A program made the translations under genes and the position numbers. A model generated the notes under the pieces. It had not been told where the DNA came from and ran no database searches. It saw only the letters and a program-made list of their open reading frames with translations. Below are positions 1 to 12,996 of a stretch of DNA of 64,000 bases, piece by piece. Source of the DNA: Riemerella columbipharyngis (GTDB taxonomy: Bacteria; Bacteroidota; Bacteroidia; Flavobacteriales; Weeksellaceae); contig NZ_FNAS01000003.1 in NCBI RefSeq assembly GCF_900101995.1, positions 1 through 64,000 on the forward strand, written 5' to 3'. The first letter of the stretch is position 1. Every line of letters begins with the position of its first letter.

Positions 1-95
1 AAATCTTTGTAAGCTTTCCTATTAGCTTCTTTCTCTTGTTCTCTACGCTTTAGCTCTGCGGAAAGCTGCTCTGTTGTTAGTTCTTGTAAATTCAT
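1..95 (-). CDS. Phage early protein of unknown function, partial (runs off left edge)
   Basis: An ATG at 93-95 on the minus strand opens a frame that stays open to the window edge and gives about 31 residues beginning MNLQELTTEQLSAELKRREQ. The start lies behind an A-rich stretch like the other starts in this cluster. It overlaps the last 53 bases of the gene before it, in another frame. The visible part is charged and probably helical. It sits downstream of the MuB-like and second ATPase genes, where Mu-like phages carry small early genes. I cannot name a family from this little sequence. Confidence 0.5.
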   Translation of the reverse strand, partial: MNLQELTTEQLSAELKRREQEKEANRKAYKD

Positions 96-384
96 TTTTT
101 ATTTTTTTGAGTTCTGTTGTTATTTTCTTGTTATTCTTTTGGTATTTCTCTATTGGATTCCAGCCTGTCCTTTCGTCCCAATAGTAAAGCAGTCTATCAT
201 CTCCGTAGCGGATACTTGGGGCTCTCCAGTTGTTATCGCTTACCCAAAAAATTACCCTTTCGGCTCTTAAGCTAAGCTCATCCGGAAGCCCCTTTATTCT
301 CCGGTGGATAGTAATTCTTTCGTCTAATGATAGCAGTCTGTAAATGCTATCCAGTGCAAGTGTTTCGTGTAGTATATTTCTCAT
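43..384 (-). CDS. Hypothetical phage early protein, 113 aa
   Basis: I do not recognise a family. The protein has a basic, helical N-terminal half (HETLALDSIYRLLSLDERITIHRRIKG-like), an aromatic stretch with DDRLLYYWDERTGW around residues 62-76, and a Lys/Arg-rich tail. It starts 10 bases after the end of the second ATPase gene and is read in the same direction, so it belongs to the early transcript of the Mu-like prophage. Its last 53 bases overlap the start of the following gene. An accessory role in phage replication or transposition is only a guess from position. Confidence 0.6.
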   Translation of the reverse strand: MRNILHETLALDSIYRLLSLDERITIHRRIKGLPDELSLRAERVIFWVSDNNWRAPSIRYGDDRLLYYWDERTGWNPIEKYQKNNKKITTELKKIKNEFTRTNNRAAFRRAKA

Positions 385-394
385 AATGTTTTAA

Positions 395-1012
395 TTAAAG
401 GTTTAAACCATGGTACATCATTGCTTTTTCTTCGTTGATGATATACTCGCCGCCGGGACACCGTCCTGTGATAGTTGCTTTCAGCCCTTCCACCCGGACG
501 ATAATTTTAGAGAGCTTCCGCCAAAACCGCCCCACTGCCGTGTCCGGAAGGTTCCTTTCTTCGTGGCTTAGGAACACAAACAGCTTGGCGGGGTGGTCTC
601 TCAGCAGTTTTTGAACTGCCGTTTTAGTCATCTCATCACGGTACACCGCAAAGTTGTCAATGAAGATTATCCGCTCGCATTTGCGTTTTTCCAACCGCTT
701 TTGTAAGTCCTCAAAACTCTCGTACTCGTGCAGCTTAATACTTTTGTTTTTCTCCGAAATACCCACCCGCTTCATCGTGGCAATGATATTGTCCGAGATG
801 CCCTCCTCAGCAGAGATATACAGCACTTTTTCAAAATGAGAAAGGTATTCCGCCAAGATGAGTGCAAAGGTGGTTTTGCCCTGTTTTTCCTTGCCCTGTA
901 TTATCCAGCCGCCGTTCTTTTCCGGATTACCCATCAGCTCCTGCCATTCTTCCGAAAATTCAAACTTGCTGAATCGTTTAGCGTAAGCCTGTTTTACCGA
1001 TATTGTCCTCAT
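395..1012 (-). CDS. P-loop ATPase of Mu-like prophage (RecA/AAA type), 205 aa
   Basis: A single-domain NTPase. The Walker A loop GKEKQGKTT lies at about residues 40-48 and a Walker B strand, RIIFIDN, at about 114-120; ISAEEG at about 66-71 resembles the segment after Walker A in RecA/DnaB-type ATPases. The start ATG overlaps the stop of the MuB-like gene as ATGA (1009-1012), so the two are probably translationally coupled. Position and fold suggest a role in DNA handling during phage transposition, possibly with the MuB-like protein. Two successive ATPases are common in Mu-like phages of Bacteroidetes, but the exact job of this one is unknown to me. Confidence 0.75.
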   Translation of the reverse strand: MRTISVKQAYAKRFSKFEFSEEWQELMGNPEKNGGWIIQGKEKQGKTTFALILAEYLSHFEKVLYISAEEGISDNIIATMKRVGISEKNKSIKLHEYESFEDLQKRLEKRKCERIIFIDNFAVYRDEMTKTAVQKLLRDHPAKLFVFLSHEERNLPDTAVGRFWRKLSKIIVRVEGLKATITGRCPGGEYIINEEKAMMYHGLNL

Positions 1013-1902
1013 GCCGCCTGTGTTTTTATGATGGTTTCCAAATACCTCAGCGATTTGATTTTATCGCTGTTTTTTGCCAAGCATTGCTTTACGATTTGGC
1101 TCACTTTACTTTTGTCGCTCATATTGGCGGCAGCCACATCACGCAGTAGCTTATCGTAAAACTCATATTTCTGCGATTTTTCATCGGGGGTAATGCCTCT
1201 GAACTCCGCCGAAAAACGGTCGAAAATTTCGCGGTAGCCCACCTTGTGGTTATTGATACCCCTTTTTATTTTAGCCCTCAGTCCGTCAGCGCCCATCATA
1301 TACCAGCCGCAGTTGCCTGCCGTTCCGTTGATAAGCCCTTTCAGCTCCAAGAATGCCGGGTAATCCAAATCACCCGCTTCGTCTATGCAGATAAAGCACC
1401 CCGACAAGGCATTGATATAGTACTTGATGTTTTCCAATATCTCGGTAAAAGTACCATCCGTGCCGCACCCGATTTCACGGGCTAAGGCTTTGATAAAATT
1501 GCGTTTCGTTTTGTGCTGGCTGGCATCTATGTAAAAGGCATTGCACATTTGCGAAATCAAGATTTTAGCCGAATAAGTTTTACCGATACCGCAGTCATCC
1601 ACCAGTATTAAAGATTTGGCATTTTGCTGGCAAAACTGGAAGTCGTCGCGTATTTCCAAATACACATCTGTTTCCACCGCTTTCCAAGTGTTTTTACCAA
1701 TAGTTACCTGCAATTTCCTGCCTATGTTCATCCATTGCGTAGCGGACAGTAAGCCCTTGCGTTCGCCTTTTTTGAGCCGTGAAAACACCGCACCGCTGAT
1801 GCCCAAGGTTTTAGCGTAAGCCTCTGCCGAACCGCCGTAATTATCACGGTTAGTCAACATCGCCTGTGCTATGGCTTCTCTTAGTTCGTTTGAAATATTC
1901 AT
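1009..1902 (-). CDS. MuB-like transposition ATPase, 297 aa
   Basis: The protein starts with a helix-turn-helix of the repressor type (AYAKTLGISGAVFSRLKKGE, about residues 28-47), followed by an AAA ATPase core with Walker A CGIGKT at about residue 104 and Walker B FICIDEAGD near residue 174. This layout, N-terminal HTH plus ATPase, is that of phage Mu B protein, which captures target DNA and activates MuA. It lies 11 bases downstream of the transposase gene, the Mu order A-B. Length is close to MuB (312 aa). The base composition here is visibly richer in G+C than the host genes further right. Confidence 0.85.
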   Translation of the reverse strand: MNISNELREAIAQAMLTNRDNYGGSAEAYAKTLGISGAVFSRLKKGERKGLLSATQWMNIGRKLQVTIGKNTWKAVETDVYLEIRDDFQFCQQNAKSLILVDDCGIGKTYSAKILISQMCNAFYIDASQHKTKRNFIKALAREIGCGTDGTFTEILENIKYYINALSGCFICIDEAGDLDYPAFLELKGLINGTAGNCGWYMMGADGLRAKIKRGINNHKVGYREIFDRFSAEFRGITPDEKSQKYEFYDKLLRDVAAANMSDKSKVSQIVKQCLAKNSDKIKSLRYLETIIKTQAA

Positions 1903-1913
1903 AATTCTTTTTT

Positions 1914-3959
1914 TTAATTAAAATTGCTAAATAGTGATTTGCTTCGTCTGCCGTTTTGTGCCGGTATGGGGTCTTTTTGCTCTTCCGTTTCTATCTCTAT
2001 AATGTTTGCCGGTTCCGATGCCGGTATATAGTCCTCCAAGCCCGGGATAACGAATTTGTGATTGAGCATTTTGCTCCTTCGGTCTATCACGCTCAGGCGG
2101 TCTATGTCGTTTTTACGCTCACACATAAAGCCTGTAACCGTGTTTTCGTAAGCACTCATTATTTGGCGGTTTACACGCCCTGCATCGTCCATCTCGTGGT
2201 AGGCACGGCTGTATGTCGGTTTAGGGATAAGCTCGCAGAGCATCATATCATCGTGGCAAATCATCGCTTTCAGCACGCCGCCGTCGTTGCCGTCCAGCCA
2301 GTAGACCTTGAAGCTTCTGCCCTCCACATATTTCATCAGCCTTATTAAATCCTCGCCGGTGCATATTTCGCCTCCCAAGCCCAACAGATATTCGGAACTT
2401 CTGAATTTCACGATGCCGGCGTTGCAGCTCGTAACGGTTTCCCTGCCGAGATGGGGCAGAATGGCGCGCCAGTTGGTGGGTTTCGTGTCCTTGCTCTGCA
2501 TCTCTGTGAACACCTCCCAGCGGGTTTTGCCTTTGTAGCGAGAATGCTCCATATTGTTCCACCGCTGTATGTCGTACAGGCTGTTGCGGATGATGGTTTC
2601 CTTTGGCAGGATAATGTCTGCACCGGCACCTTTTTGGTTGTCCTCTTTTCTTGCGAACGGACGACCGAGCCAGCCCTCTTTTTCTTTTTCAAACTCATAG
2701 CGGAGCTTACCGAAGTACCGCTCTATATGCTTAGCTCTTGCTTTGTTGGCTTCTATCCTCACGCGGTCAAACATGGCGCCGTTCATTAGGAAAGTATTCC
2801 TGTAATTGGCATTCAGCGCGCTTTCGCATTCTAATTCAAGGGGCAGGTTAAGCCCCCATTCGGTGTAGTTTCGTACCATTTGGCGGTAAAATTCAAGGAT
2901 AAGCCCCTCTTTGCTTTCGCCATAAACCCAAGTAACCCAAGCCTCGGAACCCAAATCAATGCCCATATAGAACCACATTCTTTTGCCTTTGTCGTAGAAA
3001 AACGGCGGCTGGCGGTCGTCAATAGAAATCAGAACGCCCGCTTCTTTCACTTTCTCTAAGGAGTGGTAAGGGATATATTGCGAGAGCAGCTCCTGCCGGT
3101 TGCCGCTTCGTTTAGCGTGAGTACCTATTCTGTGTTCCCATTTTCCTAACCATGCAATGATGGAATTTTCAGAAATCTCTCTGTATTTTCTACGGTCGGT
3201 ATGCTCGTAAACCTCGCCTGTGCTGTGATTGACAACCTCTACATTCCCCTCCAAAAATCCAAAGTACTTGTTCGCCACTTCCGTACGCGTAGGTTTGTAG
3301 TCCTGGCCAGCAAACATTGCGTTGAGCAGCTCTATCATCTCCTCGGTCATTACCCTTGCGTGGTTGTTCCGAAGTTTTTTAGAAATCAGTGAGGAAAAAT
3401 TAAAGTGGTTTTCATCGCCGTTTAAAAACGCTTTAAATAGCCTTACAAAATGCCTTTCGCTCACATTCATCGTGTGCCCTTGCAGGTGGATTTTCGGAAG
3501 TATATCGTTAAAAGTGATTAAGTCCTCCCAGAGTGTTTTCATTACCCCTGCTTTCTTTCCTCCGCGAAGCGAAAGCCTGTAATCTCTTAGGTTTTTAAGC
3601 GCAATAAGCACGCTGGCATTGGTAATATACTCGTCTATAAAATTTTGCTTCAGCGGCGTGCCGTCCTCAAACTCAAAAGTGGTGTAATACGCCGTTGCCA
3701 AGCTGTTTACTTCCCAATAATGCAGCAGCGGATGCTTCATCTTGCGCGGATCACCTATGCTGTCCTGCATTGCTTTGGGCAGCGTTTCAAAATTGATAAG
3801 CAACCGTCTGCCGTTACCTCCGGACTGAACTTTCTTAATGCCGTAAGGGAGCTTGCTATACCTTTGTATAGCCTTTTTCAGCGCGTCATAAGTCTTGTAA
3901 TACTTAGGCACCAGCTCGTCTACGGTTACGACTAATATGTTTCCCCAGAGGTGTGGCAT
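1914..3959 (-). CDS. Mu-like phage transposase (MuA-like, DDE recombinase), 681 aa
   Basis: This protein cuts and joins the phage ends during transposition. The catalytic core shows ISIDDRQPPF (first Asp, about residue 313), then GIDLGSEAWVTWVYG, then the acidic strand LELECES where MuA has its second Asp, and HIERYFGKLRYEFEKEKEGW with the third acidic residue. The segment YSKLPYGIKKVQSGGNGRRLLINFETLP at residues 34-61 is the N-terminal DNA-binding part seen in this family. Length is close to MuA (663 aa). The second catalytic position looks like Glu rather than Asp. It is followed by the MuB-like gene and preceded by a control region with hairpins. Confidence 0.88.
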   Translation of the reverse strand: MPHLWGNILVVTVDELVPKYYKTYDALKKAIQRYSKLPYGIKKVQSGGNGRRLLINFETLPKAMQDSIGDPRKMKHPLLHYWEVNSLATAYYTTFEFEDGTPLKQNFIDEYITNASVLIALKNLRDYRLSLRGGKKAGVMKTLWEDLITFNDILPKIHLQGHTMNVSERHFVRLFKAFLNGDENHFNFSSLISKKLRNNHARVMTEEMIELLNAMFAGQDYKPTRTEVANKYFGFLEGNVEVVNHSTGEVYEHTDRRKYREISENSIIAWLGKWEHRIGTHAKRSGNRQELLSQYIPYHSLEKVKEAGVLISIDDRQPPFFYDKGKRMWFYMGIDLGSEAWVTWVYGESKEGLILEFYRQMVRNYTEWGLNLPLELECESALNANYRNTFLMNGAMFDRVRIEANKARAKHIERYFGKLRYEFEKEKEGWLGRPFARKEDNQKGAGADIILPKETIIRNSLYDIQRWNNMEHSRYKGKTRWEVFTEMQSKDTKPTNWRAILPHLGRETVTSCNAGIVKFRSSEYLLGLGGEICTGEDLIRLMKYVEGRSFKVYWLDGNDGGVLKAMICHDDMMLCELIPKPTYSRAYHEMDDAGRVNRQIMSAYENTVTGFMCERKNDIDRLSVIDRRSKMLNHKFVIPGLEDYIPASEPANIIEIETEEQKDPIPAQNGRRSKSLFSNFN

Positions 3960-4132
3960 TTTTTTATTTTATATTGTTTTTTATAATTAAAGCCCTATGC
4001 TTTATGCTTACTGCTTAAGGTTTTATTTGTCGGTATACCGACCTTTGTTCCCGTCGGGGGCTTGAACCCCGATGCCTGCCTGTCGGGAGGGAATCACTAT
4101 ATTTACGGTGTCTAATCAAAAATTATAGTGAT
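3960..4132. promoter_or_regulatory. Palindrome-rich control region between transposase and a divergent gene
   Basis: This 173-base gap holds three inverted repeats. There is a perfect palindrome GTCGGTATACCGAC around 4029-4042; a hairpin CGGGG/CCCCG around 4055-4072 whose loop resembles a tRNA T-loop; and ATCACTATA (4093-4101) against TATAGTGAT (4124-4132), the second arm ending just before the ATG at 4133. Two diverging genes start from it. I infer operators or mRNA structures here but cannot say which protein binds. Confidence 0.5.
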
Positions 4133-4432
4133 ATGAATAATCATATTGAAGAGTTGAAAAATAATTTTGACACTTTATTTTTAGAACAAGCTAAAAATAC
4201 CGTCCATCTATTAACCCTTACTAAAGCATTTTGGGAGGTGTCGTCCGTGGTTTTGAATAAGGCTGAGTTAGCCAATTTGAAGTCCAAATACTATCATTCC
4301 TTATACGAGAAAACGCACGAGACATTAACTCAGAACGAAAGCGTGTTTTATCAGCCTTCAAAAATTCATTTTGCTCTTTTGGAGATGAAATCTGTGATTG
4401 ATGAGCTCCTTCGAGATGCTGAGGATGACTAA
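4133..4432 (+). CDS. Hypothetical phage protein read against the early operon, 99 aa
   Basis: Unrecognised. The protein is helical and acidic, with no membrane segment or signal peptide (MNNHIEELKNNFDTLFLEQ at the start, a run of DELLRDAEDD at the end). It is the only rightward gene inside the leftward early block, diverging from the transposase gene. The start is preceded by a hairpin arm rather than a ribosome binding site. Genes in this inverted position in temperate phages are often expressed in the lysogen, but nothing in the sequence proves that. The overlapping minus-strand frame at 4221-4463 has an unnatural composition and is treated as its shadow. Confidence 0.6.
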   Translation: MNNHIEELKNNFDTLFLEQAKNTVHLLTLTKAFWEVSSVVLNKAELANLKSKYYHSLYEKTHETLTQNESVFYQPSKIHFALLEMKSVIDELLRDAEDD

Positions 4433-4462
4433 ATCTAAGCGTAATTTCTATATTTATTTCCA

Positions 4463-4612
4463 TTATTTCAATGTTTTAAAAGTCTTTGATATTGTGAATC
4501 TTCCGAAGAGTATCCATTCTTCAGCTACTACCATATCTGCAAAGATGAAGCTCACAGCACTATGGCGGTACTTTAATACTCGGTGTGCTAATTTCTTGAT
4601 AGTCTTTTTCAT
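4463..4612 (-). CDS. Small basic phage protein, 49 aa
   Basis: A short frame, MKKTIKKLAHRVLKYRHSAV at its start, ending TISKTFKTLK. Its ATG overlaps the stop of the preceding 110-aa gene as ATGA (4609-4612), which argues for a real, coupled gene. The N-terminus is strongly basic; the middle (SFIFADMVVAEEWILFGRF) is hydrophobic. Function unknown. Confidence 0.45.
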   Translation of the reverse strand: MKKTIKKLAHRVLKYRHSAVSFIFADMVVAEEWILFGRFTISKTFKTLK

Positions 4613-4941
4613 AGTTTTATGTTTTTTAATTTCAAGTTTGCTAATGCTAAGCTTTCCATTTCGAGTAATATTATTTTTTTCTTTTCCACTTTGAAATGCT
4701 CAAATATGCTCATAAACAAATCCCTGTTTATTTCCTCAAAGTTCCCACCCTCTACTATCTCCTCTATATATGGCGTGCTCACATCTAAAATCATAGTATC
4801 ATCGAATGTAAAGGATATAGCGTTGAGAAAAGAGCCTTGAGGGGCTTCTGTACGCCCTGTTACATAATAATAGGAATTCCCATCTCTATAATATTTTCCT
4901 ATCTCTAACTCGCTTGCTTGTGTGATTTTCCTTGTTTTCAT
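4609..4941 (-). CDS. Hypothetical phage early protein, 110 aa
   Basis: Unrecognised. The N-terminal half is beta-rich (ELEIGKYYRDGNSYYYVTGR) and resembles small domains that bind ligands or fold as barrels; the C-terminal third is Lys-rich and helical. It starts 18 bases after the antirepressor-like gene and its stop overlaps the next small gene by ATGA, so it is part of the same leftward early transcript. Nothing points to a specific function. Confidence 0.6.
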   Translation of the reverse strand: MKTRKITQASELEIGKYYRDGNSYYYVTGRTEAPQGSFLNAISFTFDDTMILDVSTPYIEEIVEGGNFEEINRDLFMSIFEHFKVEKKKIILLEMESLALANLKLKNIKL

Positions 4942-4959
4942 TGTTTTAAATTTTAACTG

Positions 4960-5568
4960 TTATCGTTTTTTAAGTTCGTCCATTAGTTTTTGGGCTCCGC
5001 TGGCAGTGTAAAATTGGCTTTCCAGTATTTTGTTGCCTGTGCTTCGGGCGTAGAGGAGCTGGAGCATATAGGTGTCTTTTATTTCACCTCTTAGCACTTT
5101 CTCTACCTGCCATTCTGTAGTGCGGCATTGCTTGGCTACCAGTTTAATGTCCGTACGCGATAGATGACTCCCCACCTCCGAAAGCATCGCTTTTACTACT
5201 TTTTGTTCGGCACGGGCTTTGGCACGGTTCATAATTTTTGGGTCGGTGCTGTAAGTGCCATACTTGCGGATACTCGGTAACACTTCCGAAGTTACCCACT
5301 TGCGGAACTTGCGAGCTTCGGGTTTGTTGCTTCTCATTATTATTGTATAGAGACCGCTTTCGTTTACATAAAGTAAATTTTGGTACCCACCAGGGGTGTA
5401 AGTTTTTTCTACCCCCTTTTCGTCTTCATCTAATGATTTCGCTAAAGTATCTCTATGGTTTTGGATTTCAAGAAGAGTACATAAGTCCTTTGCACAAAAC
5501 CATACTTCGTTTTTTTTCTTCTTAATTCTAATTTCCCCAAATTGTGGGTGTGTAATTAAATTGCTCAT
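4960..5568 (-). CDS. BRO-N domain phage antirepressor, 202 aa
   Basis: Residues 1-105 match the BRO-N domain: GEIRIKKKKNEVWFCAKDLCTLLEIQN, then KGVEKTYTPGGYQNLLYVNESGLYTIIMRS, then ARKFRKWVTSEVLPSIRKYG. The last motif is diagnostic of BRO-family and antirepressor proteins. The C-terminal half (about 115-202) carries a second helical domain with SRTDIKLVAKQCRTTEWQVEKVLRGE, which could be another HTH. Such proteins counter the phage repressor and help switch to lytic growth. It starts 4 bases after the small HTH gene and is cotranscribed with it. Confidence 0.8.
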   Translation of the reverse strand: MSNLITHPQFGEIRIKKKKNEVWFCAKDLCTLLEIQNHRDTLAKSLDEDEKGVEKTYTPGGYQNLLYVNESGLYTIIMRSNKPEARKFRKWVTSEVLPSIRKYGTYSTDPKIMNRAKARAEQKVVKAMLSEVGSHLSRTDIKLVAKQCRTTEWQVEKVLRGEIKDTYMLQLLYARSTGNKILESQFYTASGAQKLMDELKKR

Positions 5569-5571
5569 ATA

Positions 5572-5775
5572 TTACTGATTTATTGTTTTTTGTATTGCGT
5601 GTTCAAACTCTCTACAGAGCATTTTATAATCTTTGATAATATTGTCAGGCATTATACCCTTGTGGTCTCCTTTTAGGCACATTCTTACATATCTTGGTGT
5701 AAAGCCGTATTTCTCAGCGACTTTATTCACAGCTATAGCATTGTGTTTCGCTCTTTTTTGATTACTTTTGTCCAT
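5572..5775 (-). CDS. Small HTH protein of prophage, 67 aa
   Basis: The segment AVNKVAEKYGFTPRYVRMCLKGDHKG at about residues 15-40 reads as a helix-turn-helix. It resembles the protein encoded at 5970-6179: both have a turn of the type GFTPRYVRM/GYTTDAIRM and end in a helix finishing QKTINQ/QKYQNQ. The two therefore look like paralogues within one control region. The gene overlaps the end of the AntA-like gene by 43 bases. A DNA-binding role in early phage control is likely; the target is unknown. Confidence 0.6.
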   Translation of the reverse strand: MDKSNQKRAKHNAIAVNKVAEKYGFTPRYVRMCLKGDHKGIMPDNIIKDYKMLCREFEHAIQKTINQ

Positions 5776-5966
5776 GTTTTATTATGTTCACCCGCTGGGA
5801 CTAAAAGGGCTAACGTTTCATAATCAACACCTTGCGTGTAACCATAACCGAGCATTCTTTTAATCCATTTCCCGAATTGCTCGTTACTTCCAAGAAATTG
5901 GTGTAGCTCCTTTGCACTCACGGTATTTTCTCCGTTTTTCTCTGTGATTTTGATTAAATTGTTCAT
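5733..5966 (-). CDS. AntA/AntB-type antirepressor, short form, 77 aa
   Basis: Residues 1-52 match the start of the AntA/AntB antirepressor domain: TVSAKELHQFLGSNEQFGKWIKRMLGYGYTQGVDYE. In longer members the domain continues with a conserved stretch ending in an AKELAM-type motif; that part is missing, and the frame closes with KKERNTML. It may be a deleted gene whose tail was replaced by the following small HTH gene. It starts 3 bases after the upstream gene and overlaps the next, so translation is probably coupled. Whether the short protein works cannot be told from the sequence. Confidence 0.65.
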   Translation of the reverse strand: MNNLIKITEKNGENTVSAKELHQFLGSNEQFGKWIKRMLGYGYTQGVDYETLALLVPAGEHNKTWTKVIKKERNTML

Positions 5967-5969
5967 AAT

Positions 5970-6179
5970 TTACTGATTTTGATATTTTTGTATTAAATTT
6001 TCCCTTGCATCTATCACTTCGTATAGAGCCTCGTAGGTGGCTTTGTCTTTTCTTGTAAGCCTCATTCTAATAGCATCTGTGGTATATCCAAACATTTTGG
6101 AAAGCGTCTGGATATCGCCAGTCTGTTTTTTCTGTTCGCAAATACGAACAATCTCGCTAAAATTCTTTACATTTGTCAT
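5970..6179 (-). CDS. Small HTH protein at the head of the phage early operon, 69 aa
   Basis: I chose the ATG at 6177-6179 (MTNVKNFSEIVRICEQKK); a longer frame begins at 6230, but those added residues would overlap the promoter at 6201-6230. The segment DIQTLSKMFGYTTDAIRMRLTRKDKA is an HTH-like pair of helices. It is the first gene of the leftward transcript, the place where Mu has ner and lambda has cro, so a Cro/Ner-like role in shutting off the divergent repressor gene is a reasonable inference. It is similar to the protein at 5572-5775. Confidence 0.6.
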   Translation of the reverse strand: MTNVKNFSEIVRICEQKKQTGDIQTLSKMFGYTTDAIRMRLTRKDKATYEALYEVIDARENLIQKYQNQ

Positions 6180-6200
6180 TGTTATGATGTTTTGATAATG

Positions 6201-6230
6201 CAAATATATAGTAAATAATCTAAATATCAA
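6201..6230 (-). promoter_or_regulatory. Early phage promoter, TTG-N19-TATATTTG
   Basis: On the minus strand TTG (complement of 6228-6230) is followed after 19 bases by TATATTTG (complement of 6201-6208), the Bacteroidetes -33/-7 pattern. It would start transcription about 20 bases before the small HTH gene at 6179. Confidence 0.6.
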
Positions 6231-6258
6231 GTAATAAATAGTATAAAATCTAAAATAT
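6217..6258. promoter_or_regulatory. Candidate operator pair between repressor and early genes
   Basis: The divergent region holds two similar boxes on the plus strand, AATCTAAATAT (6217-6227) and AATCTAAAATAT (6247-6258), about 30 bases apart. The first lies inside the early promoter. This spacing, three helical turns, fits a pair of operator sites for the repressor encoded at 6264, but binding is an inference. Confidence 0.4.
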
Positions 6259-6263
6259 TTTTA

Positions 6264-6656
6264 ATGATAGTTGATAGAATACTGAAAATCATAGAGTTAA
6301 AAAATATAAATAAAAGTATTTTTTATAGAGAAACAGGACTTTCTAACGGTTTTTTAGATAAGGTAAAGGATGTGGGAGCATCTAAAATAGAGAAAATACT
6401 CTCATCTTATCCAGAAATCAATCCGCTGTGGTTACTTACAGGCGAAGGCGAAATGCTTAAGGCTGGAATAAATAATAACCAAAAAATAAAAGGAGATGGT
6501 AATATTATGGCGGGTATCGGCTCTAATATTGAAACTGGAGACAGCAAACAGACCATTCTTCAATTGAAAAAAGAGATAAAAGAACTAAATAAAAGATTAT
6601 TAGAAAAAGACGAACAAATCAATAAACTCATAAATATTTTATCTAGTGGAAAGTAA
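6264..6656 (+). CDS. Phage repressor-type HTH protein with coiled-coil tail, 130 aa
   Basis: Residues 1-60 are a compact HTH domain (MIVDRILKIIELKNINKSIF, then GLSNGFLDKVKDVGASKIEKIL, then INPLWLLTGEGEML), the form usual in Bacteroidetes phage repressors, where the WLLTGEG motif closes the domain. Next comes a polar Asn/Gly stretch with NNNQKIKGDGNI (about 71-82), and then a heptad-like coiled coil (QLKKEIKELNKRLLEKDEQINKLINIL), probably for dimerisation. No peptidase domain follows, so cleavage by RecA is unlikely. It diverges from the early operon and overlaps the next gene by 11 bases. Confidence 0.8.
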   Translation: MIVDRILKIIELKNINKSIFYRETGLSNGFLDKVKDVGASKIEKILSSYPEINPLWLLTGEGEMLKAGINNNQKIKGDGNIMAGIGSNIETGDSKQTILQLKKEIKELNKRLLEKDEQINKLINILSSGK

Positions 6657-7212
6657 TAATCAAAAAATTAAAGGGAACAATAACATTCAAATTGGTGGAG
6701 ATTTTAATGGAAATGTTATAAAAACCGAGAAAGTTTATAACAGAACTAAAGTCATTCATGATCCTGATGAGCATATAACAACGGAGCAACAATTTGAAAT
6801 AAAGTCTCATATAGATGAACTTGTAAGAATGGTTTCATCCGTTGATACCAATACTGATAGTAGACCTAAATTGTATAAAAGAGAGTGGGGACTTTTTAAA
6901 AAGCAATTTAAAGTATCTGCATACCAAGTTTTACCCAAAAAAGATTACGAAGATGCCATTAAGTATCTTAAAAAAAGGATAGCATATTTAGGTAAACCCA
7001 AACAAAGAAGAGGAGATAATGATGCTTGGAGAAAAAATCAATATAAAGCAATCAATGCAAGAGCAACACAATTAGGAATGTCAAGGGATGAAAAACTTGC
7101 TTTTGCTACGGAAGTTTTAGGTTTAAAGACACCATTATTAAGCCTAAAAGATTTAAGTGATACAAGGCTCAACAACCTGTACAAAAAAATAATGGCTAAG
7201 AGGAAAAAGTAG
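6646..7212 (+). CDS. ORF6C-like phage protein, partner of the repressor, 188 aa
   Basis: The start is a GTG at 6646-6648 inside the end of the repressor gene, so translation is probably coupled. The N-terminus repeats the repressor's motif: NNQKIKGNNNIQIGGDFNGN. Residues about 75-140 (REWGLFKKQFKVSAYQVLPKKDYEDAIKYLKKRIAYLG) look like the ORF6C domain, found in phage and antirepressor proteins. The C-terminus is basic and ends KKIMAKRKK. Being paired with the repressor suggests a role in maintaining or releasing lysogeny. The shared Asn/Gly motif may let the two proteins assemble together; that is inference. Confidence 0.65.
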   Translation: MESNNQKIKGNNNIQIGGDFNGNVIKTEKVYNRTKVIHDPDEHITTEQQFEIKSHIDELVRMVSSVDTNTDSRPKLYKREWGLFKKQFKVSAYQVLPKKDYEDAIKYLKKRIAYLGKPKQRRGDNDAWRKNQYKAINARATQLGMSRDEKLAFATEVLGLKTPLLSLKDLSDTRLNNLYKKIMAKRKK

Positions 7213-7259
7213 AAAAACAGAGCCTAATCTATGGGTAGTGTATATTAATAGGTTAGGGT

Positions 7260-7424
7260 TTATCTATCCAACTTTTGCTCTTTTTTTATAAGGTATATCG
7301 TAATAATAGAAGCCAATATCAGAATAAATGATATTAACATATTTTCATAGCGCCTGATAAACGCAAACGCTATAGCACTTATTATCCCTATTACAAATAT
7401 AGCTTTAAAGTAGGTAATAATCAT
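7260..7424 (-). CDS. Small two-helix membrane protein, 54 aa
   Basis: A short frame from the ATG at 7422-7424 to TAA at 7260. It has two hydrophobic stretches (about residues 5-22 and 28-46) split by FIRRYENM, and a charged tail KKEQKLDR. The sequence TACTTTTG sits upstream on the minus strand as a possible -7 element. It converges with the ORF6C-like gene and may be the last gene of the prophage. Small membrane proteins next to phage repressors sometimes block superinfection, but the function here is unknown. Confidence 0.5.
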   Translation of the reverse strand: MIITYFKAIFVIGIISAIAFAFIRRYENMLISFILILASIITIYLIKKEQKLDR

Positions 7425-7650
7425 TCGTGTTTATTTTGGACAAAAGTATAAAAAAAAACAGATACGAGAACGTATTTTTAATAGGAAGTTTTGCTTTTTA
7501 AGGATATAAAACATTGTTTAACAGCTATATATGTGCAACTTGGCTTCTTTTTACCGTGTCCCTAAATATACTCAAATGTTTTATTTTGTGTAAAAAATAG
7601 CTATCTACTGAGCGTTTAATATATTTCAATCCGTTAAAATATATTTGAGA

Positions 7651-7686
7651 ATGTCCCCCCAAATGTCCCCCCAAATGTCCCCCCAA
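7651..7686 (+). repeat. Three perfect copies of a 12-base tandem repeat
   Basis: The unit ATGTCCCCCCAA is repeated three times without a mismatch (7651-7662, 7663-7674, 7675-7686). One frame reads CPPKCPPKCPPNF and stops; another reads MSPQ three times, then LLKGYF and stops. Both look like low-complexity tails of proteins, so this may be the scar of a lost gene end, for example an integrase. Stops just upstream show that no intact gene remains. Confidence 0.7.
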
Positions 7687-7828
7687 CTTTTAAAAGGGTA
7701 TTTTTAGGGGTAAAATGCACTCTCACTATTGCGCGGCTAAAAACCGTACTTTTAGCAATCCAATCATCGACTGTTTATTCGTGTCATTAGCTTTGTTTTA
7801 TGGGGTATTGCGTATTTCTGAGCACAAC

Positions 7829-7858
7829 AAAAAGCCCCAACGGTAGTTAGAGCTTTTT
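7829..7858 (+). terminator. Terminator-like hairpin
   Basis: AAAAAGC (7829-7835) pairs with GCTTTTT (7852-7858), with an inner AAC/GTT pairing. The arms of A and T make it usable on both strands. It would end transcription from the left or protect the DUF932-like genes on the right. Confidence 0.5.
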
Positions 7859-8021
7859 ATAGTGTTTTTATTTGTGTTTTTAGTGGTATTTCACTGGTAG
7901 TAAATAGTAGTTTTTACACATTTGGTATTTCTCTATCCTTTTACCCTTTTAGGCTTTCAATCCCTTTGTTAATAGGCCTTTTGGTGTTTTTACCCGCCTT
8001 TTTTATTTTGCCCTTTTTGTT

Positions 8022-8763
8022 TTATGCCCGGTACTGTGCCGTATTTATTCTTTGCTCAAAATTATAAGGGATGTAATTTTTACCCGAGAGGGTGTAGAGT
8101 ATCTCGAAAAGATTAGCCCATTCTCTGGTATTGAGTGCGCTTATGCGGTAAACTTCCTTGTAGAAAGAGCCTACGGAAAGGTTTTCGCAGACGATTCTTT
8201 TTTGAAGGATTTTCAATGTAATGCCTACCAAATTTACAATTAGACAAAACCCAAACTGAAAGGACTCCTCTCCGCCGAAATCGATGATGTCTTTTGAAGT
8301 CATGGCGGATGGTAAATCCGTTTTCCAATATTCCGTAGGAATTGTAGTCGATGTACTCTATTTTCATATCGAATTTTGCAATGATTTCCTCTACTAGTTT
8401 GAAAGAAAGTTCATAAGGAATAATTTCTTGTTCTACCGGAAAAGCCGAAACGATACTTTTACTTTCTTCATTGCCGATGAGTAGAATTTTCTTGCCGAGG
8501 ATTTTGCCGTTTGCCTGATTGAAGTAGTTATTAACGGCGATTTCTTCTTCCGCACCGCCGTGTTTTTGGATTAAATCTCTTTGGCGGTTGGTGAGTTTTC
8601 CCATTTCCTGAATGGTATGGATGGTGTTTTCCGTTGATGCAATGGGAATTCCTTCTACAGACAAAGTATTGTCGTCCAACAATTGTATGTTTTGCAAATC
8701 CACCTGATTGGCGATGATGGGACGATTGATAAGGGTTGTTTTAATATCGTTGTAATTTTCCAT
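8022..8763 (-). pseudogene. DUF932-like phage/plasmid gene with a frameshift
   Basis: The start codon is at 8763 and the frame ending at 8113 reads sensibly down to GILENGFTIR, then turns into an Arg/His-rich tail. The neighbouring frame, ending at 8022, carries on with SKDIIDFGGEESFQFGFCLIVNLVG and KRIVCENLSV, which look like the core of DUF932-type proteins (phage and plasmid proteins of unknown function). The break lies near 8285-8305 and a one-base change would join the two parts to about 247 aa. It follows the ATPase gene by 4 bases, so both form one unit. A sequencing error could give the same picture. Confidence 0.6.
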
Positions 8764-8767
8764 AATA

Positions 8768-9604
8768 TCAAGATTTAAATAAATTGCTAAAGTTTTTGAA
8801 CATTTCGAAGTTTTGTTTTTTGGCTTCTTTATTCATTTGATTGATTTCGATGCCTTTATGGTATCGTTCTTCGTCGTACCAGATGTTTTCTTCGCAAGAA
8901 AGGTCGTAGTAAAGCTTTTGCCCTACAACGCCACGGCGGTGCTTAGAGAATATAATGTATCTGTCCGAAAACGGATTTTTGGTATTGGTCAGTCGTAGCT
9001 CCATCATTGCCGTAATCATATGTTTTAATCTGTTGGAACCGACAAAAGCCCCCGATTTGGTTACCTGTTGAATGGTGATGAACGAGATGTTTTTTTCGGT
9101 TTTGTTTTTCCCGATGTTATGTTTTTTGATAAGGGTTAACAGCCAACTTTCCGCCGTCTTGTTGGTGATGCTTTCTTCCTCCTTTATGATGCCCTGAAGT
9201 TCCAAAAAAGAGTCTATCAAAACGATATCCCAGCCCTCGTCCAGTATGGACTGAATGTATTTGTGGTAATGGGTGTTTTGCGTAATATCGCTTTTTACAA
9301 AGAGGGTAGGGATGTTCCCAAATTTGCTGAAACGCTCAAGGTAAATAGAGAGGTCAATTTCATTCATCTCTGCACTGATGAACAAAACTTTTATACGAGG
9401 GTGGTTTCTGATGATATTCGCCACCATATCCAGCGCAACGGTGGTTTTGCCGGCTACCGGATCTCCGATGAGCATATAGTTTACGCCTTTGGGCAGTCCG
9501 CAGTGGGAAGAAAGAAGATGATCCAAAATCGTGGCGGTTTTGAATAGCTCGTATAGTTCTTTCTCCGGAATTTTTATATCCTTCAGCCGAATAATGCTCT
9601 GCAT
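8768..9604 (-). CDS. RecA/DnaB-like ATPase of a mobile element, 278 aa
   Basis: The Walker A motif GDPVAGKTT lies at about residues 47-55 and the Walker B strand WDIVLIDSF near 129-137, followed by SFITIQQVTKSG and an arginine-containing strand. The order and the ISAEMNE motif after Walker A match RecA/RadA/DnaB-type ATPases, close to the AAA_25 group found in phages and mobilisable islands. It probably acts on DNA during replication or recombination of an element that is now decayed. The start is the ATG at 9602-9604. The frameshifted DUF932-like gene follows directly, and a terminator hairpin lies upstream at 9674-9706. Confidence 0.7.
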   Translation of the reverse strand: MQSIIRLKDIKIPEKELYELFKTATILDHLLSSHCGLPKGVNYMLIGDPVAGKTTVALDMVANIIRNHPRIKVLFISAEMNEIDLSIYLERFSKFGNIPTLFVKSDITQNTHYHKYIQSILDEGWDIVLIDSFLELQGIIKEEESITNKTAESWLLTLIKKHNIGKNKTEKNISFITIQQVTKSGAFVGSNRLKHMITAMMELRLTNTKNPFSDRYIIFSKHRRGVVGQKLYYDLSCEENIWYDEERYHKGIEINQMNKEAKKQNFEMFKNFSNLFKS

Positions 9605-9640
9605 TGAATTTTAGTTTTCCGCAAAATTTGTTACGGGGTC

Positions 9641-9685
9641 GGACAAAATAGGTCTTTTAGATAAACAAAATAAAAAAAGAGATTA
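9641..9685. repeat. Direct repeat copy A (pairs with 12530-12570)
   Basis: GACAAAATAGGTCTTTTA followed by an A-rich run and GAGA matches the copy at about 12530-12570 in nearly all positions over roughly 40 bases. Both copies run straight into a terminator-like hairpin. Together they frame the block of broken genes. Confidence 0.6.
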
Positions 9686-9708
9686 TTTTTTTGGAATAAT
9701 CTCTTTTT
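9674..9708. terminator. Terminator hairpin, bidirectional
   Basis: AAAAGAGATTAT pairs with ATAATCTCTTTTT around a T-rich loop. It separates the broken nuclease gene (stop at 9742, read leftwards) from the ATPase gene. Confidence 0.65.
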
Positions 9709-9741
9709 ACAGTATTTAAGTTTTTGTTTTATAGTGAGTTA

Positions 9742-11190
9742 TTAGTCCATTCCTGCCTTTTTAAGTGCCAAAAGTATTTCCTCTATTCTTTCTGTACAAT
9801 CTTTGAAAAACTTATCACTGTTGTTAATAATCTCTTCTTGCCATCTTTCAACGGAAAGATAATCAAGATTGAAATAGAAAGGATACCAATCGTCTGAAGA
9901 AGGTTTATTAGTTCCTGAAATAAAATCTAATAATTTTTGTCTTTTTTCGTCTGTAATTGAGTAGTTTTCATGTTTGCAAAGCCCATAATGGTATTTTCTA
10001 TCTCTATCTCTATCATAGTGGAATTTTATCCAATAATTATTATCCCAATCATCTTTTATTAGATAGAAATCAATACAGTATTCTTTGCTACCATTAAATA
10101 CATACTTCAATCCTTTTTCTTTGGCAAATTTTTCCATATTAGGATTAAAATATTTTTCTGTAAGGTAATCGTAAACCTTATCGTAGTTTTGGTGGATATT
10201 TTTAGCAGGTTCTATATTTTCGCTGAGATACTCAATTATCTCTTTCTCGTTTTTAGTGTTTATGTCTTGATAGGTTAAAATTTTTAAATGATTAATATAT
10301 TGAACGAGTGTCTCTCTTACCAAAGGAAACCGAGAGGAAATGGCTACACATTTCTCAAGCCAAGTAATGATGTCTTCTTTGTATGAAATACGCAAGTAAG
10401 GAACTTCTTTGCCGTCTTCTTTACAGCTGTTTTCACTGGTATCATCACCAAAAAGAGTGAGGTATGCTAAGAGATGTTGCTTTTTATTATTTGCATACCT
10501 ATCATACCTTACAAGTTGCTTATCTTGGTCTCCGGCATAAACTTTATTTTCAATGATAAAGAAATTATCTTAATCATCTTCTATTACAATATCCATTCTG
10601 CCGTGCTCGGTTGAATATTCTGTATAAACTTTCGCTTTTTGATGGTTAAAATTTGCAAGGGTAAGCATATCGCTTAATATATCGTTAGCACACTTCCTAA
10701 TTTTAGATTTTAATTCACACATTTCATTGCAATTTAACAATTCAGAGTTGTTTTTTAATGTTTCGTCAATACTTTCTTTTAATCCGTATATTCCATTAGA
10801 ATTTAAAAATTCGGTGTTAGTTTTGATTTCTAAAGACTCAATAAAACTATTCAATATTTTGGATTTTGATTTGTTTGCTTCGTCGGAATTTAAAAATTCA
10901 GTATCGGCTTTATTTTTTAATGTTTCAATAAAACGCTCCAAAAAATTAGATTTCAAGTCATGTGTTTTTGTAGAATTTAAAAATTCAGCATTAGCTTTGT
11001 TTTTTAACATTTCAACAAAATATTCCAAAAACTTGGATTGCAATCCGTGGGTTCCCGTAGGATTTAAAAATTCCGCAATAATTCTTGAATGCGTATTCTC
11101 ATAATGATTTACCCTCAATAAACTAAAGATGTTAAAACGATAGCCTAAGATGTCCAAAAACTCATTGTTTTTCTTGTTTATGATGATCAC
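9742..11190 (-). pseudogene. PD-(D/E)XK nuclease-family gene, interrupted by an in-frame stop
   Basis: The frame reads as one protein of about 480 residues except for a TAA at 10570-10572. Before the stop stands THSRIIAEFLNPTGTHG, the N-terminal motif of the PDDEXK_4-type family, and GRMDIVIEDD with the catalytic Asp; straight after it in the same frame comes NFFIIENKVYAGDQ, the E-x-K part, and KQLVRYDRY. So the stop falls between the two catalytic motifs. Between residues about 40 and 170 a 29-residue unit (AEFLN...LKNKA) is repeated four to five times. The start may be this GTG or lie further upstream, because the frame stays open. It is a probable defence or restriction-type nuclease remnant. 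Confidence 0.7.
10700..11078 (-). repeat. Coding tandem repeat of an 87-base unit inside the nuclease gene
   Basis: Translated units start AEFLNPTGTHG, AEFLNSTKTHD, TEFLNSDEANK and TEFLNSNGIYG, then a weaker ELLNCNEMCE. The first three are 29 residues each, the fourth about 24. Each unit copies the conserved first motif of the nuclease family together with the helix after it. Confidence 0.75.
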
Positions 11191-11234
11191 CTGATTGAGT
11201 AAATTTTTAATTTTTTCTATTGGTATATGTTTTT

Positions 11235-12073
11235 TTATTCGTAATATTCATAAGCGTAAGTTGTTTCAAAATTAGCTATTCCATCTCTTAATACTGATTC
11301 TTTGGCTAAGTCTTGCTTTCCGTTGTACTCAAAAATGGTCAGTTTATTATCTTGTTCATTTAGACAGTATACTAATTTTGAGTCGTATGTATTTTTGAAA
11401 GTATCTGTATCATGGTAGTTTCTCTCCGTAATTTTATCTTTTAATTCTTGTTCTTCAAAAATTATATGTCCAAAATCGTCATAATTGAGAATATAGCTCT
11501 TTTTACGAGCACCTTCTTTGTATGTGGATTTTCGACTTAATAATAGTCCGTCCTCCTCCGGGGATGTTGTCATTTCCTGTCCGGGTTGATAATAAATTTT
11601 TTTGAGTATTAATATATCTTTTTCTGGTGCTTTCATAAAAGTTTCTGTATAGTCTAAATCTCCATTTTTGTAGTAAAGGACTTCGTAGAAGTATTCAGAG
11701 AAAAATCGTTCATTTATTTCTCTCTGGGGGCTGTGGGGTATATTTTCTTCGAGTAAGACATAATAACATCTCTAATGTTTTCTGTAACAAAGATATCAAT
11801 TTTTTCAAGTTTATTTTGAGCGTTGTAGGTAAATAATTTTCTTAATATGTTATTTAGGTTAAGCTTATCGTTGCAGCCTTGTATTGTCTCAGAAATAATT
11901 AGTCCTTCCTCGTTGATTATTGATGTTTTTTCAAGAGTCTAATGCGTGCTTTTACTCACTTTGTTTAGGCGTTTGATTTTTTTTGTTTTAAAAAACAATT
12001 TTTCCGAGTAATACTTAAGTTCTAAGTTATACTTCATATCTAAATTGTGCATTATTTTTAAGTTGTCTTTCAT
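11235..12073 (-). pseudogene. Unknown gene broken by one stop and one frameshift
   Basis: The ATG at 12071-12073 opens a frame of 44 codons (starting MKDNLKIMHNLDMKYNLELK) closed by TAG at 11939-11941; the same frame continues as TLEKTSIINEEGLIISETIQ and on to about 11750. Near 11735-11755, by a run of C residues, the reading shifts to the frame ending at 11235, which carries FFSEYFYEVLYYKNGDLDYTET and the longest open part, ending FETTYAYEYYE. The repeated Tyr/Asp/Gly pattern is like YD-type or immunity-like proteins, but I do not recognise the family. It overlaps the upstream end of the nuclease reading frame and is probably from the same lost locus. Confidence 0.6.
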
Positions 12074-12231
12074 AATTGAAAAAAATATAGATTAATATTT
12101 AGTTTACAATTTCACGATTTCTAAAACTTCTCTGGGGGCGGTTCCTGTTTTTGTACCATAATACATTCATAGTTTTATTGGTTCATTTTTACTTAAACAA
12201 AAAGGACACAGTACTTGCTTTTGTCCATATT

Positions 12232-12363
12232 ATTCGGTTGTGGGCTCTGGTAAGCCTGAGATGAAAATAGGAAAAAACAGCCTGCGTCCCTGTGAAGGGA
12301 GCATTTTTGCTCTTGCCCATTACACTTCATCTCTTAGTTTAAATTTACCAGATTTAGCCGAAT
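12232..12363 (+). ncRNA. Candidate structured RNA: long rod with bulges (6S-like shape)
   Basis: Distant segments pair in nested order: ATTCGG (12232-12237) with CCGAAT (12358-12363); TCTGGTAA (12246-12253) with TTACCAGA (12345-12352); GAGATGAA (12258-12265) with TTCATCTC (12326-12333). Inside, CCCT-GTGA-AGGG (12288-12299) has a GNRA-type loop on the plus strand, and GAGCA/TGCTC (12299-12312) makes an alternative hairpin. A rod with asymmetric internal loops is the general shape of 6S RNA, and flavobacterial 6S-type RNAs are known, but I did not recognise conserved bases. The strand is chosen only by the GNRA loop. Confidence 0.4.
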
Positions 12364-12529
12364 GAAATAATGGTAAGTATTTTATGCTTTTGTATGTCGT
12401 TTAAATGTTAGCTTCTTTTTATTAATTTATTTTTGACAACGATAAGAAAAAAACGACATATCGTCTGCAGGCTGAATTTTTTTATTTCATTAACATTTCA
12501 TTTTACCCTACAAAGATATCTTGCCAGAA

Positions 12530-12570
12530 CGACAAAAGAGGTCTTTTAAGTTAAGAAAATAAAAAAGAGA
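12530..12570. repeat. Direct repeat copy B (pairs with 9641-9685)
   Basis: GACAAAAGAGGTCTTTTAAG followed by an A-rich run and GAGA. See copy A. The hairpin directly after it differs in sequence between the two copies, so the similarity is not just that of two terminators. Confidence 0.6.
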
Positions 12571-12601
12571 CTGCTTGTGTCTTTAAGCAATCTCTTTTTT
12601 T
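12563..12601. terminator. Terminator-like hairpin downstream of the str operon
   Basis: AAAAAAGAGACTGCTT pairs with AAGCAATCTCTTTTTT with small mismatches. A second terminator lies nearer rpsJ, so this one may serve either direction. Confidence 0.55.
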
Positions 12602-12642
12602 GTGCGAAATTATAATATTTTATATTTCAAAAAAGGATTAAA

Positions 12643-12671
12643 AAAGACCGCTCTTTAGAGAACGGTCTTTC
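12643..12671 (-). terminator. Terminator of the rpsL-rpsG-fusA-rpsJ operon
   Basis: AAAGACCG (12643-12650) pairs with CGGTCTTT (12663-12670), about 20 bases beyond the rpsJ stop. It ends the operon after rpsJ. Confidence 0.75.
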
Positions 12672-12690
12672 GTCTTATGATAAGTAATGA

Positions 12691-12996
12691 TCATACTTTA
12701 ATTTCTACATCTACGCCACTTGGAAGTTCTAACTTCATTAGGGCATCCACAGTTTTAGAAGAAGAAGAGTAGATATCCATTAATCTTTTGTGAGAAGAAA
12801 GTTGGAATTGTTCTCTTGCTTTTTTATTCACATGCGGAGATTTTAGTACTGTAAAAATTCTTTTATGTGTAGGCAATGGGATAGGTCCATTCACTACAGC
12901 ACCAGTAGATTTTACTGTTTTCACGATTTTTTCAGCAGACTTGTCTACTAAATTATAATCGTAAGATTTTAGTTTTATTCTGATTCTTTGTGACAT
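12691..12996 (-). CDS. rpsJ: Ribosomal protein S10 (also NusE)
   Basis: The 101-aa protein has the S10 signatures [21 protein letters not shown] at the start and [28 protein letters not shown] in the middle. S10 is part of the 30S head and also acts with NusB in antitermination. Length is normal. It is the last gene of the str operon, 19 bases after fusA. In many bacteria S10 leads the large S10 operon (rplC, rplD and so on); here a terminator follows at once and no rplC is seen, so the two operons are separated in this genome. Confidence 0.95.

Follow-up and report, generated by a model that had tools for sequence, protein, structure and literature searches.

What does the folded stretch at positions 12232-12363 of this Riemerella columbipharyngis DNA encode, and what might it do? 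The stretch lies in a window of 64,000 nucleotides, by which we mean the whole piece of contig NZ_FNAS01000003.1 that was analyzed, and a first-pass annotation made from the sequence alone had read it as a rod-shaped RNA of three nested helices, perhaps a divergent 6S RNA. We find that it belongs to a family of structured RNAs that is real and was previously unlisted. With a probability of roughly two in three (0.68), we favor a model in which this RNA is a cis-acting leader that, to judge from aligned sequences and predicted folds, would function as a riboswitch-type transcription attenuator. Membership among the riboswitches is proposed for the architecture only.

The three helices sit where they had been placed, with six pairs in ATTCGG/CCGAAT and eight each in TCTGGTAA/TTACCAGA and GAGATGAA/TTCATCTC. 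Folding of the window copy is beyond chance on both strands: the plus strand has a minimum free energy of -38.6 (z -2.5, with 2 of 200 shuffles equally good) and the minus strand one of -44.0 (z -4.7, 0 of 200). Two homologs fold more strongly still on the minus strand, with z at -5.5 in Bergeyella and -6.3 in one Riemerella. For the Bergeyella copy, however, the plus strand gives a good fold as well (z -5.0), and fold energy alone therefore does not settle the choice of strand. The RNA strand is most likely the minus strand, since the promoter box, the U-tract and the downstream genes described below share that direction. The GNRA loop is present on the plus strand of the window copy but is not conserved, varying among the five relatives.

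A core of 131 nt is conserved across Riemerella and Bergeyella. The R. columbipharyngis genome itself gives one full-length match to the stretch, the remaining matches being 14-22 nt long, while four of the five other genomes of the genus carry it at 87-90% DNA identity and Bergeyella at 70%; the copy in the fifth was recovered by a covariance model. Conservation continues past the core on the 3′ side of the minus strand, up to a hairpin followed by UUUUU, and the genes around the RNA differ among several of these genomes. A first covariance model built from the six Riemerella/Bergeyella copies found matches in 69 of 320 genomes of the family (E≤0.05) under stricter filters, which lose weak copies; 79 of the 82 listed matches were full length and the three partial ones all came from one genome (G306). 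A refined model matched 87 of 395 genomes of the order (E≤0.001), with a maximum of eight copies in one genome, and 19 of 296 genomes of the phylum (E≤1e-4), among which four belong to other orders of the class and one lies outside it. These samples overlap and the E-values of the models are rough. BLASTN gave six further matches within the family, with E of 7e-5 for one and of 5e-4 to 6e-4 for the other five. They were treated as chance because we saw nothing of the element in the three that we inspected (L036, L037 and L040; the others are L038, L039 and L041). Searches of phages and plasmids returned no match for the window copy or for one Chryseobacterium-type copy. A 16-mer, GGGACGCAGGCTGTTT, does occur in three viral contigs, in surroundings unlike the element, and an origin in a phage or virus was set aside; the same 16-mer is found in 107 genome stretches, 80 of them listed, of which the analysis drew on those from Riemerella anatipestifer and Bergeyella zoohelcum.

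Covariation supports a structured non-coding RNA very strongly. We analyzed 66 of the 82 family matches, leaving out 16 weaker or edge matches, and aligned 57 matches drawn from 56 of the 66 sources, after dropping near-duplicates by eye; the aligned set includes a weak second copy at locus L259, and an initial alignment that contained four opposite-strand matches does not enter the counts. The covariation is massive: 42 of the 46 pairs have changed on both sides among the 57 distinct sequences, 93.7% of cells are paired compared to 65.8% after shuffling, and 0 of 500 shuffles equal the alignment on any of five measures. When the partner columns are shifted by one, two or three positions, pairing falls to 36.6-48.2%. 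From the same alignment RNAalifold predicts 36 pairs, 31 of them changed on both sides. The stem sequences diverge widely between clades. In the closing stem P1, whose 5′ strand lies at 12356..12363 and 3′ strand at 12232..12239 on the minus strand, all eight pairs have changed on both sides across the family, and the window copy has a single C-A mismatch. The central stem P3/P4 is formed by a 5′ strand at 12294..12333 (R) and a 3′ strand at 12258..12290 (S), both on the minus strand, and each of its 31 pairs has changed on both sides in at least one sequence.

The helices of the proposed rod are there, but on the aligned sequences the middle 8-bp helix is better read as two small hairpins, both covarying, whose loops kiss through 6 bp. 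Its CUGGUA/UACCAG helix is nearly invariant and both strands lie in hairpin loops. On the minus strand of the window copy, hairpin A (12341..12355; AAAU[CUGGUAA]AUUU, loop in brackets) holds the 5′ kissing strand CUGGUA at 12346-12351, and hairpin B (12243..12256; GGCU[UACCAG]AGCC), whose stem pairs covary, holds the 3′ kissing strand UACCAG at 12247-12252. The family consensus is (G/A)AAU[CUGGUA N]AUU(C/U) for A and GGYU[UACCAG]ARCC for B, with an A/U-swapped variant in one group. In hairpin A two of four stem pairs covary, 99.1% of cells are paired and the loop-closing pair is present in all 58 distinct copies of the stem counts, which leave out L229 for want of the loop pattern. Stem covariation is also seen outside the positions shared with the middle helix: the fourth pair of A forms in 56 of 58 copies (43.7 when shuffled) and the second pair of B in 58 of 58 (47.5), each with 0 of 2000 shuffles as good. 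Pairing between the two loops holds in 99.7% of cells. By pattern, 88 of 89 copies (91 distinct copies minus L229 and L297, in which the pattern failed) have complementary loop strands, and the one exception (L213) is a wrong pattern match; by eye, the L229 loops have one mismatch and those of L297 pair over 5 bp and carry a compensated change. Compensated variants occur as CUGGCA/UGCCAG in two copies and as CCGCUA/UAGCGG in the second of two copies that lie 1.5 kb apart at L259 (4001-4116 and 5571-5693). From the complementary strands in the loops and the covarying stems around them, we infer that the RNA, rather than being a plain rod, has a junction at which P1, hairpin A, P3/P4 and hairpin B meet and which the kissing loops tie together.

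A 6S RNA was the more specific proposal, prompted by the rod-like appearance, and we now give it almost no credence. Candidates for 6S-Flavo RNA lie elsewhere in all six genomes of the genus, at 46-57 bits (E 3e-6 to 1e-8), under the gathering score of 85 bits; the one in the R. columbipharyngis genome is at C32:48861-48965, and four of the six were re-examined. It may be that the 6S-Flavo model is drawn too narrowly to cover Riemerella. The core itself matches no Rfam model, 6S included, even at E 10, and kissing hairpins and multiple copies in many genomes also speak against a 6S RNA. A cmscan of the whole window against Rfam 15 gave no match at the gathering score (6S-Flavo, RF01685, included), all entries found at E≤10 within 12000-12700 start at or beyond 12465, the 17 and 13 homologous loci searched gave none at E 0.5, and the window contains no tRNA or tmRNA. 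The RNA resembles 6S-Flavo and Bacteroidales-1 (RF01693) in being structured, of similar size and present in the same genomes, and differs from them in sequence, structure and locus.

We recognized no publication that describes this RNA in a literature covered mostly at the level of titles and the opening lines of abstracts. Excerpts of a transcriptome study of F. psychrophilum describe a Flavo-1 motif as widespread in Flavobacteriaceae, with matches that are indistinctly sense or antisense (PMC9723704). The present RNA is oriented to genes, unlike Flavo-1, and Rfam searches that should include that motif gave no match. The same excerpts report 64 structured 5′ regions (PMC9723704), and it is possible that the present RNA overlaps some of them.

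Where the RNA lies relative to genes argues that it is a leader. Of the 66 loci, 64 have a sense-oriented gene as the first one past the core, whereas the orientation of the preceding gene is near random (38 sense, 28 antisense), and in 41 of 66 loci a sense start codon follows the end of the core by 73-93 nt. Genes here are ATG-started open reading frames (ORFs) of at least 60 aa picked by length, so individual assignments may be wrong; at L050, one of the two exceptions, the antisense ORF resembles an insertion sequence (IS) transposase. Upstream, 35 of 64 distinct stretches contain TAnnTTTG, given as the Bacteroidota -7 box consensus in excerpts of PMC9723704, with its first base between -75 and -35, compared to 32 of 701 control windows, and near-versions were seen by eye in many other loci. 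The four Riemerella relatives have it at -82 or -85; the version in relatives is TATCTTTG. The window copy has one mismatch to the consensus and is not among the 35 hits; its degenerate box, TATCGTTG, lies at 12437..12444 on the minus strand, about 75-80 nt before the folded core, and a second candidate, TATCTTTG, lies at 12511-12518. The functional unit exceeds the stretch first noticed: on the minus strand it extends from around 12444 to 12199 and takes in the -7-like box and a terminator strand described below. Leader-peptide attenuation is unlikely, since an ATG falls within -42..+18 of the start of the core in 4 of 100 copies only, counting ATG starts in that interval.

The alternative suggestion that the locus encodes some other small RNA came close, but the promoter box, the sense genes and the terminator pairing indicate a cis-acting leader rather than a free-standing transcript. 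A small RNA acting in trans and ending at the terminator, with a site before accessory genes that reflects insertion beside genomic islands, would account for the Riemerella copies that end in their own hairpin with UUUUU, for the several copies in many genomes and for a window copy that has no intact gene directly downstream. It leaves the gene orientation and the start-codon spacing just described unexplained, as well as the similarity in sequence that many Chryseobacterium-type copies show, by eye, up to the start codon, and we consider it unlikely.

Directly after the core lies a segment, D (12204..12231 on the minus strand), that can pair with S in place of R and would form the 3′ strand of a terminator. 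In the 59 distinct sequences of the 66 loci, S:D pairing has an energy of -18 to -34 kcal/mol, and z is below -2 in 53 of them; a control pairing of the 5′ strand with D passes in 1 of 59. Pairing of S with upstream DNA passes in 7 of 59, mostly Riemerella/Bergeyella copies that bear an extra complementary stretch. A U-tract (five or more T among the 9 nt past D) is found at 47 of 59 loci compared to 10% of background windows. A further set of 17 distinct loci outside both models, taken from nineteen refined-model loci, gave S:D pairing in 14, the control in 1 and the U-tract in 14; fifteen more loci were read afterwards. When six leaders were folded from S onward, each formed a long S:D hairpin that has a small hairpin in its loop and ends at the U-tract. 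In the window copy the S:D duplex reaches -25.1 kcal/mol (z -3.5, 0 of 100 shuffles), UUUUU follows D at 12199..12203 on the minus strand, and D can also form a small hairpin of its own (GGACA/UGUCC). S contains GGGACGCAGGCUGUUU, which is invariant among the six Riemerella/Bergeyella copies. The stretch complementary to S there is CAGCCTGC (pairing with GCAGGCUG; 12465..12474 on the minus strand, from the alignment), about 100 nt upstream of the core. It is present in all six Riemerella/Bergeyella copies, in which S:upstream pairing has z of -2.0 to -3.2, and is not general elsewhere.

Because S:R and S:D are mutually exclusive, the core would be an antiterminator and S:D a terminator. We envision that the core folds first during transcription and holds S, so that polymerase would continue into the operon (ON), and that when the core is unformed or opened S would pair with D, enclosing hairpin B in the loop of an intrinsic terminator at which transcription would stop (OFF), leaving an RNA of roughly 200-250 nt. 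The balance could be shifted by a small molecule, a protein or an elongation factor that recognizes the invariant kissing region CUGGUA/UACCAG. Riboswitches and attenuators are commonly recognized by a conserved folded domain in a 5′ leader, by an alternative pairing, exclusive of it, that serves as expression platform, and by a shared metabolic theme downstream that names the ligand. Here the first is indicated by covariation, promoter box and sense genes and the second is predicted in silico from S:D and the U-tract; in place of the third, the downstream functions are diverse.

Several observations weigh against the attenuator model. In six leaders the core has a predicted energy of -44 to -55 kcal/mol, compared to -29 to -36 kcal/mol for the fold from S onward, and the whole-leader folds of all six retain the core. 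The core is thus predicted to be far more stable, which would leave the switch ON at equilibrium and make the OFF state dependent on kinetics or on a factor. The loop of the terminator is long, and scanning the window for simple terminators (stem-loops with loops of 3-8) gives nothing at D. In Riemerella, D has its own hairpin before the U-tract, so an ordinary terminator also fits there. The z threshold is missed by 6 of 59 and 3 of 17 copies and the U-tract is lacking in 12 of 59 and 3 of 17. S prefers its own D to the D of loci with dissimilar S only in part (by a mean of -6.3 kcal/mol; among the best 5% in 34 of 89), as would follow from a consensus shared by S and D. Because the alignment used for covariation had been fitted to the model, it is biased in the model's favor. 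Finally, the downstream genes are too diverse to suggest a ligand.

The scale of this diversity is evident from domain scans, which covered 105 of 119 first and second genes and 54 of 93 genes further down the runs. The commonest gene families that lie mainly downstream are each found at 9 of 66 loci. Among the 105 there are few recurring families, with two IS1595 transposases and two sigma-70 factors. The 54 further genes include two that match type IIG restriction-modification models, two each for the KAP-NTPase, QatA, PDC-S20 and PifA models, which probably all hit one pair of proteins, five with a type IX secretion system (T9SS) sorting domain, and single matches to RHS/DUF6443 and to Tae4. 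Ten genes scanned in Flavobacterium-like and neighboring groups comprise four TonB receptors with a plug domain, two sigma-70-type factors and two response regulators among them.

Such diverse accessory operons, some of them long, are what one would expect of a leader for processive antitermination or polymerase recruitment (put-, EAR- or ops-like), in which a modified polymerase reads through long, foreign, Rho-prone operons, and an invariant kissing motif framed by variable stems suggests a general factor over a metabolite. However, local attenuation accounts better for a terminator partner that directly adjoins the core, and many of the downstream sense-gene runs are short; we regard processive antitermination as quite improbable. 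A different view is that the element acts as DNA, being a recombination site of the attC or integron type that folds when single-stranded. Downstream genes do vary, and mobility genes are frequent nearby, with recurring clusters of IS1595 transposases at 19 loci, integrase-type proteins at 10 and resolvase-type proteins at 5. Yet 65 of 66 loci have a single core (L259 has two), the end of the core and the leader are not repeated between successive genes, 17 flanking stretches giving only weak hits of 18-58 nt, and a -7 box upstream with a U-tract downstream follows the logic of an RNA. A recombination site is very unlikely.

To return to the window copy, which under the attenuator model probably is an orphaned leader, since its promoter box and first gene are degenerate; it would at most yield the terminated RNA of roughly 200-250 nt. 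Alignment with the start region of the first downstream gene in relatives reveals a decayed remnant at 12100..12170 on the minus strand, which starts MNVLW... and resembles LWRVT.K small proteins found downstream in those relatives; a search with the 70-aa protein gave no match in the R. columbipharyngis genome. From this alignment, the window looks to have kept the decayed start of a DUF6140-like gene. Intact relatives of that gene follow the RNA in three of the six genomes of the genus and a similar start region is present in Bergeyella. The protein scores 17.9 bits against a Pfam cut-off of 27, and because its cluster is found at only 3 of 66 loci as well, it was rejected as the partner of the RNA. 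Pfam DUF6140 exceeds the cut-off in 3 of 320 genomes, and at the two such loci inspected no copy of the RNA was recognized directly upstream. No relative of the DUF6140-like protein was found in viral contigs, and no mention of DUF6140 in the literature searched. At one Riemerella locus (L053:6235-9074) two GTPase-like genes come after the DUF6140-like protein, MMR_HSR1 and DUF697 domains being present in the first of them, and at L061 a DUF6140 gene stands with a GTPase-like gene by eye; it is possible that these genes form a defense module. A WYL regulator was likewise rejected as partner, its cluster being limited to 4 of 66 loci. In two Riemerella genomes an RNA-ligase-domain protein (PF09414) and a WYL/WCX regulator lie downstream (L051:10107-12327 and L053:10406-12589, with Pfam run on L051 only).

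Further downstream in the window, 8113-11636 on the minus strand holds short or broken ORFs, among them a fragment of a PD-(D/E)XK nuclease (PF14281) and a weakly matching DnaB/AAA-like ATPase, and this run perhaps is a decayed operon formerly read from this leader. On the other side, the interval from rpsJ to the RNA contains a pair of hairpins with T tracts, at 12561-12600 and about 12640-12672, that are likely terminators of the ribosomal protein operon, although the terminator scan gives only the first. Positions 1-8000 contain genes that resemble, by eye, a Mu-like transposable prophage, with ORFs for a 681-aa transposase-like and a 297-aa ATPase-like protein.

These findings raise the possibility, which we put forward tentatively and consider doubtful as yet, that flavobacteria and some other Bacteroidota gate accessory operons with an RNA switch of a new class, one that responds to a signal or a factor and is organized around an invariant kissing loop. 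The operons in question would be those for anti-phage defense, polymorphic-toxin-like proteins, T9SS cargo, SusC/TonB receptors and extracytoplasmic function (ECF) sigma factors. If so, one RNA logic would preside over many unrelated, horizontally moving clusters, like an RNA counterpart of RfaH/ops, and a single switch that gates defense, toxin-like and nutrient-receptor operons would point to an undiscovered signal or elongation factor that times accessory genes. A leader RNA that is present in 87 of 395 sampled genomes of the order, and for which the tested loci gave no match in Rfam 15, would be a sizeable addition to the regulatory RNAs of Bacteroidota, and its kissing-loop motif and S/D pairing allow precise mutants to be made at once.

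Two known systems come closest to the architecture described here. In riboswitches with an intrinsic-terminator platform, as in this RNA, a compact conserved core in the 5′ leader has loop-loop pairing near a junction, one strand is shared by core and terminator, and a U-tract and then the gene follow; the purine riboswitches are an example of loop-loop tertiary pairing near a junction. Unlike those riboswitches, the present RNA precedes functionally diverse accessory operons, its core itself holds the antiterminator strand, it matches no Rfam class in the loci tested and its genes suggest no ligand candidate. Antitermination of the RfaH/ops, LoaP and EAR type exerts leader-located control over diverse horizontally acquired operons, and in this the present RNA is alike. 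It differs in having a local terminator pairing.
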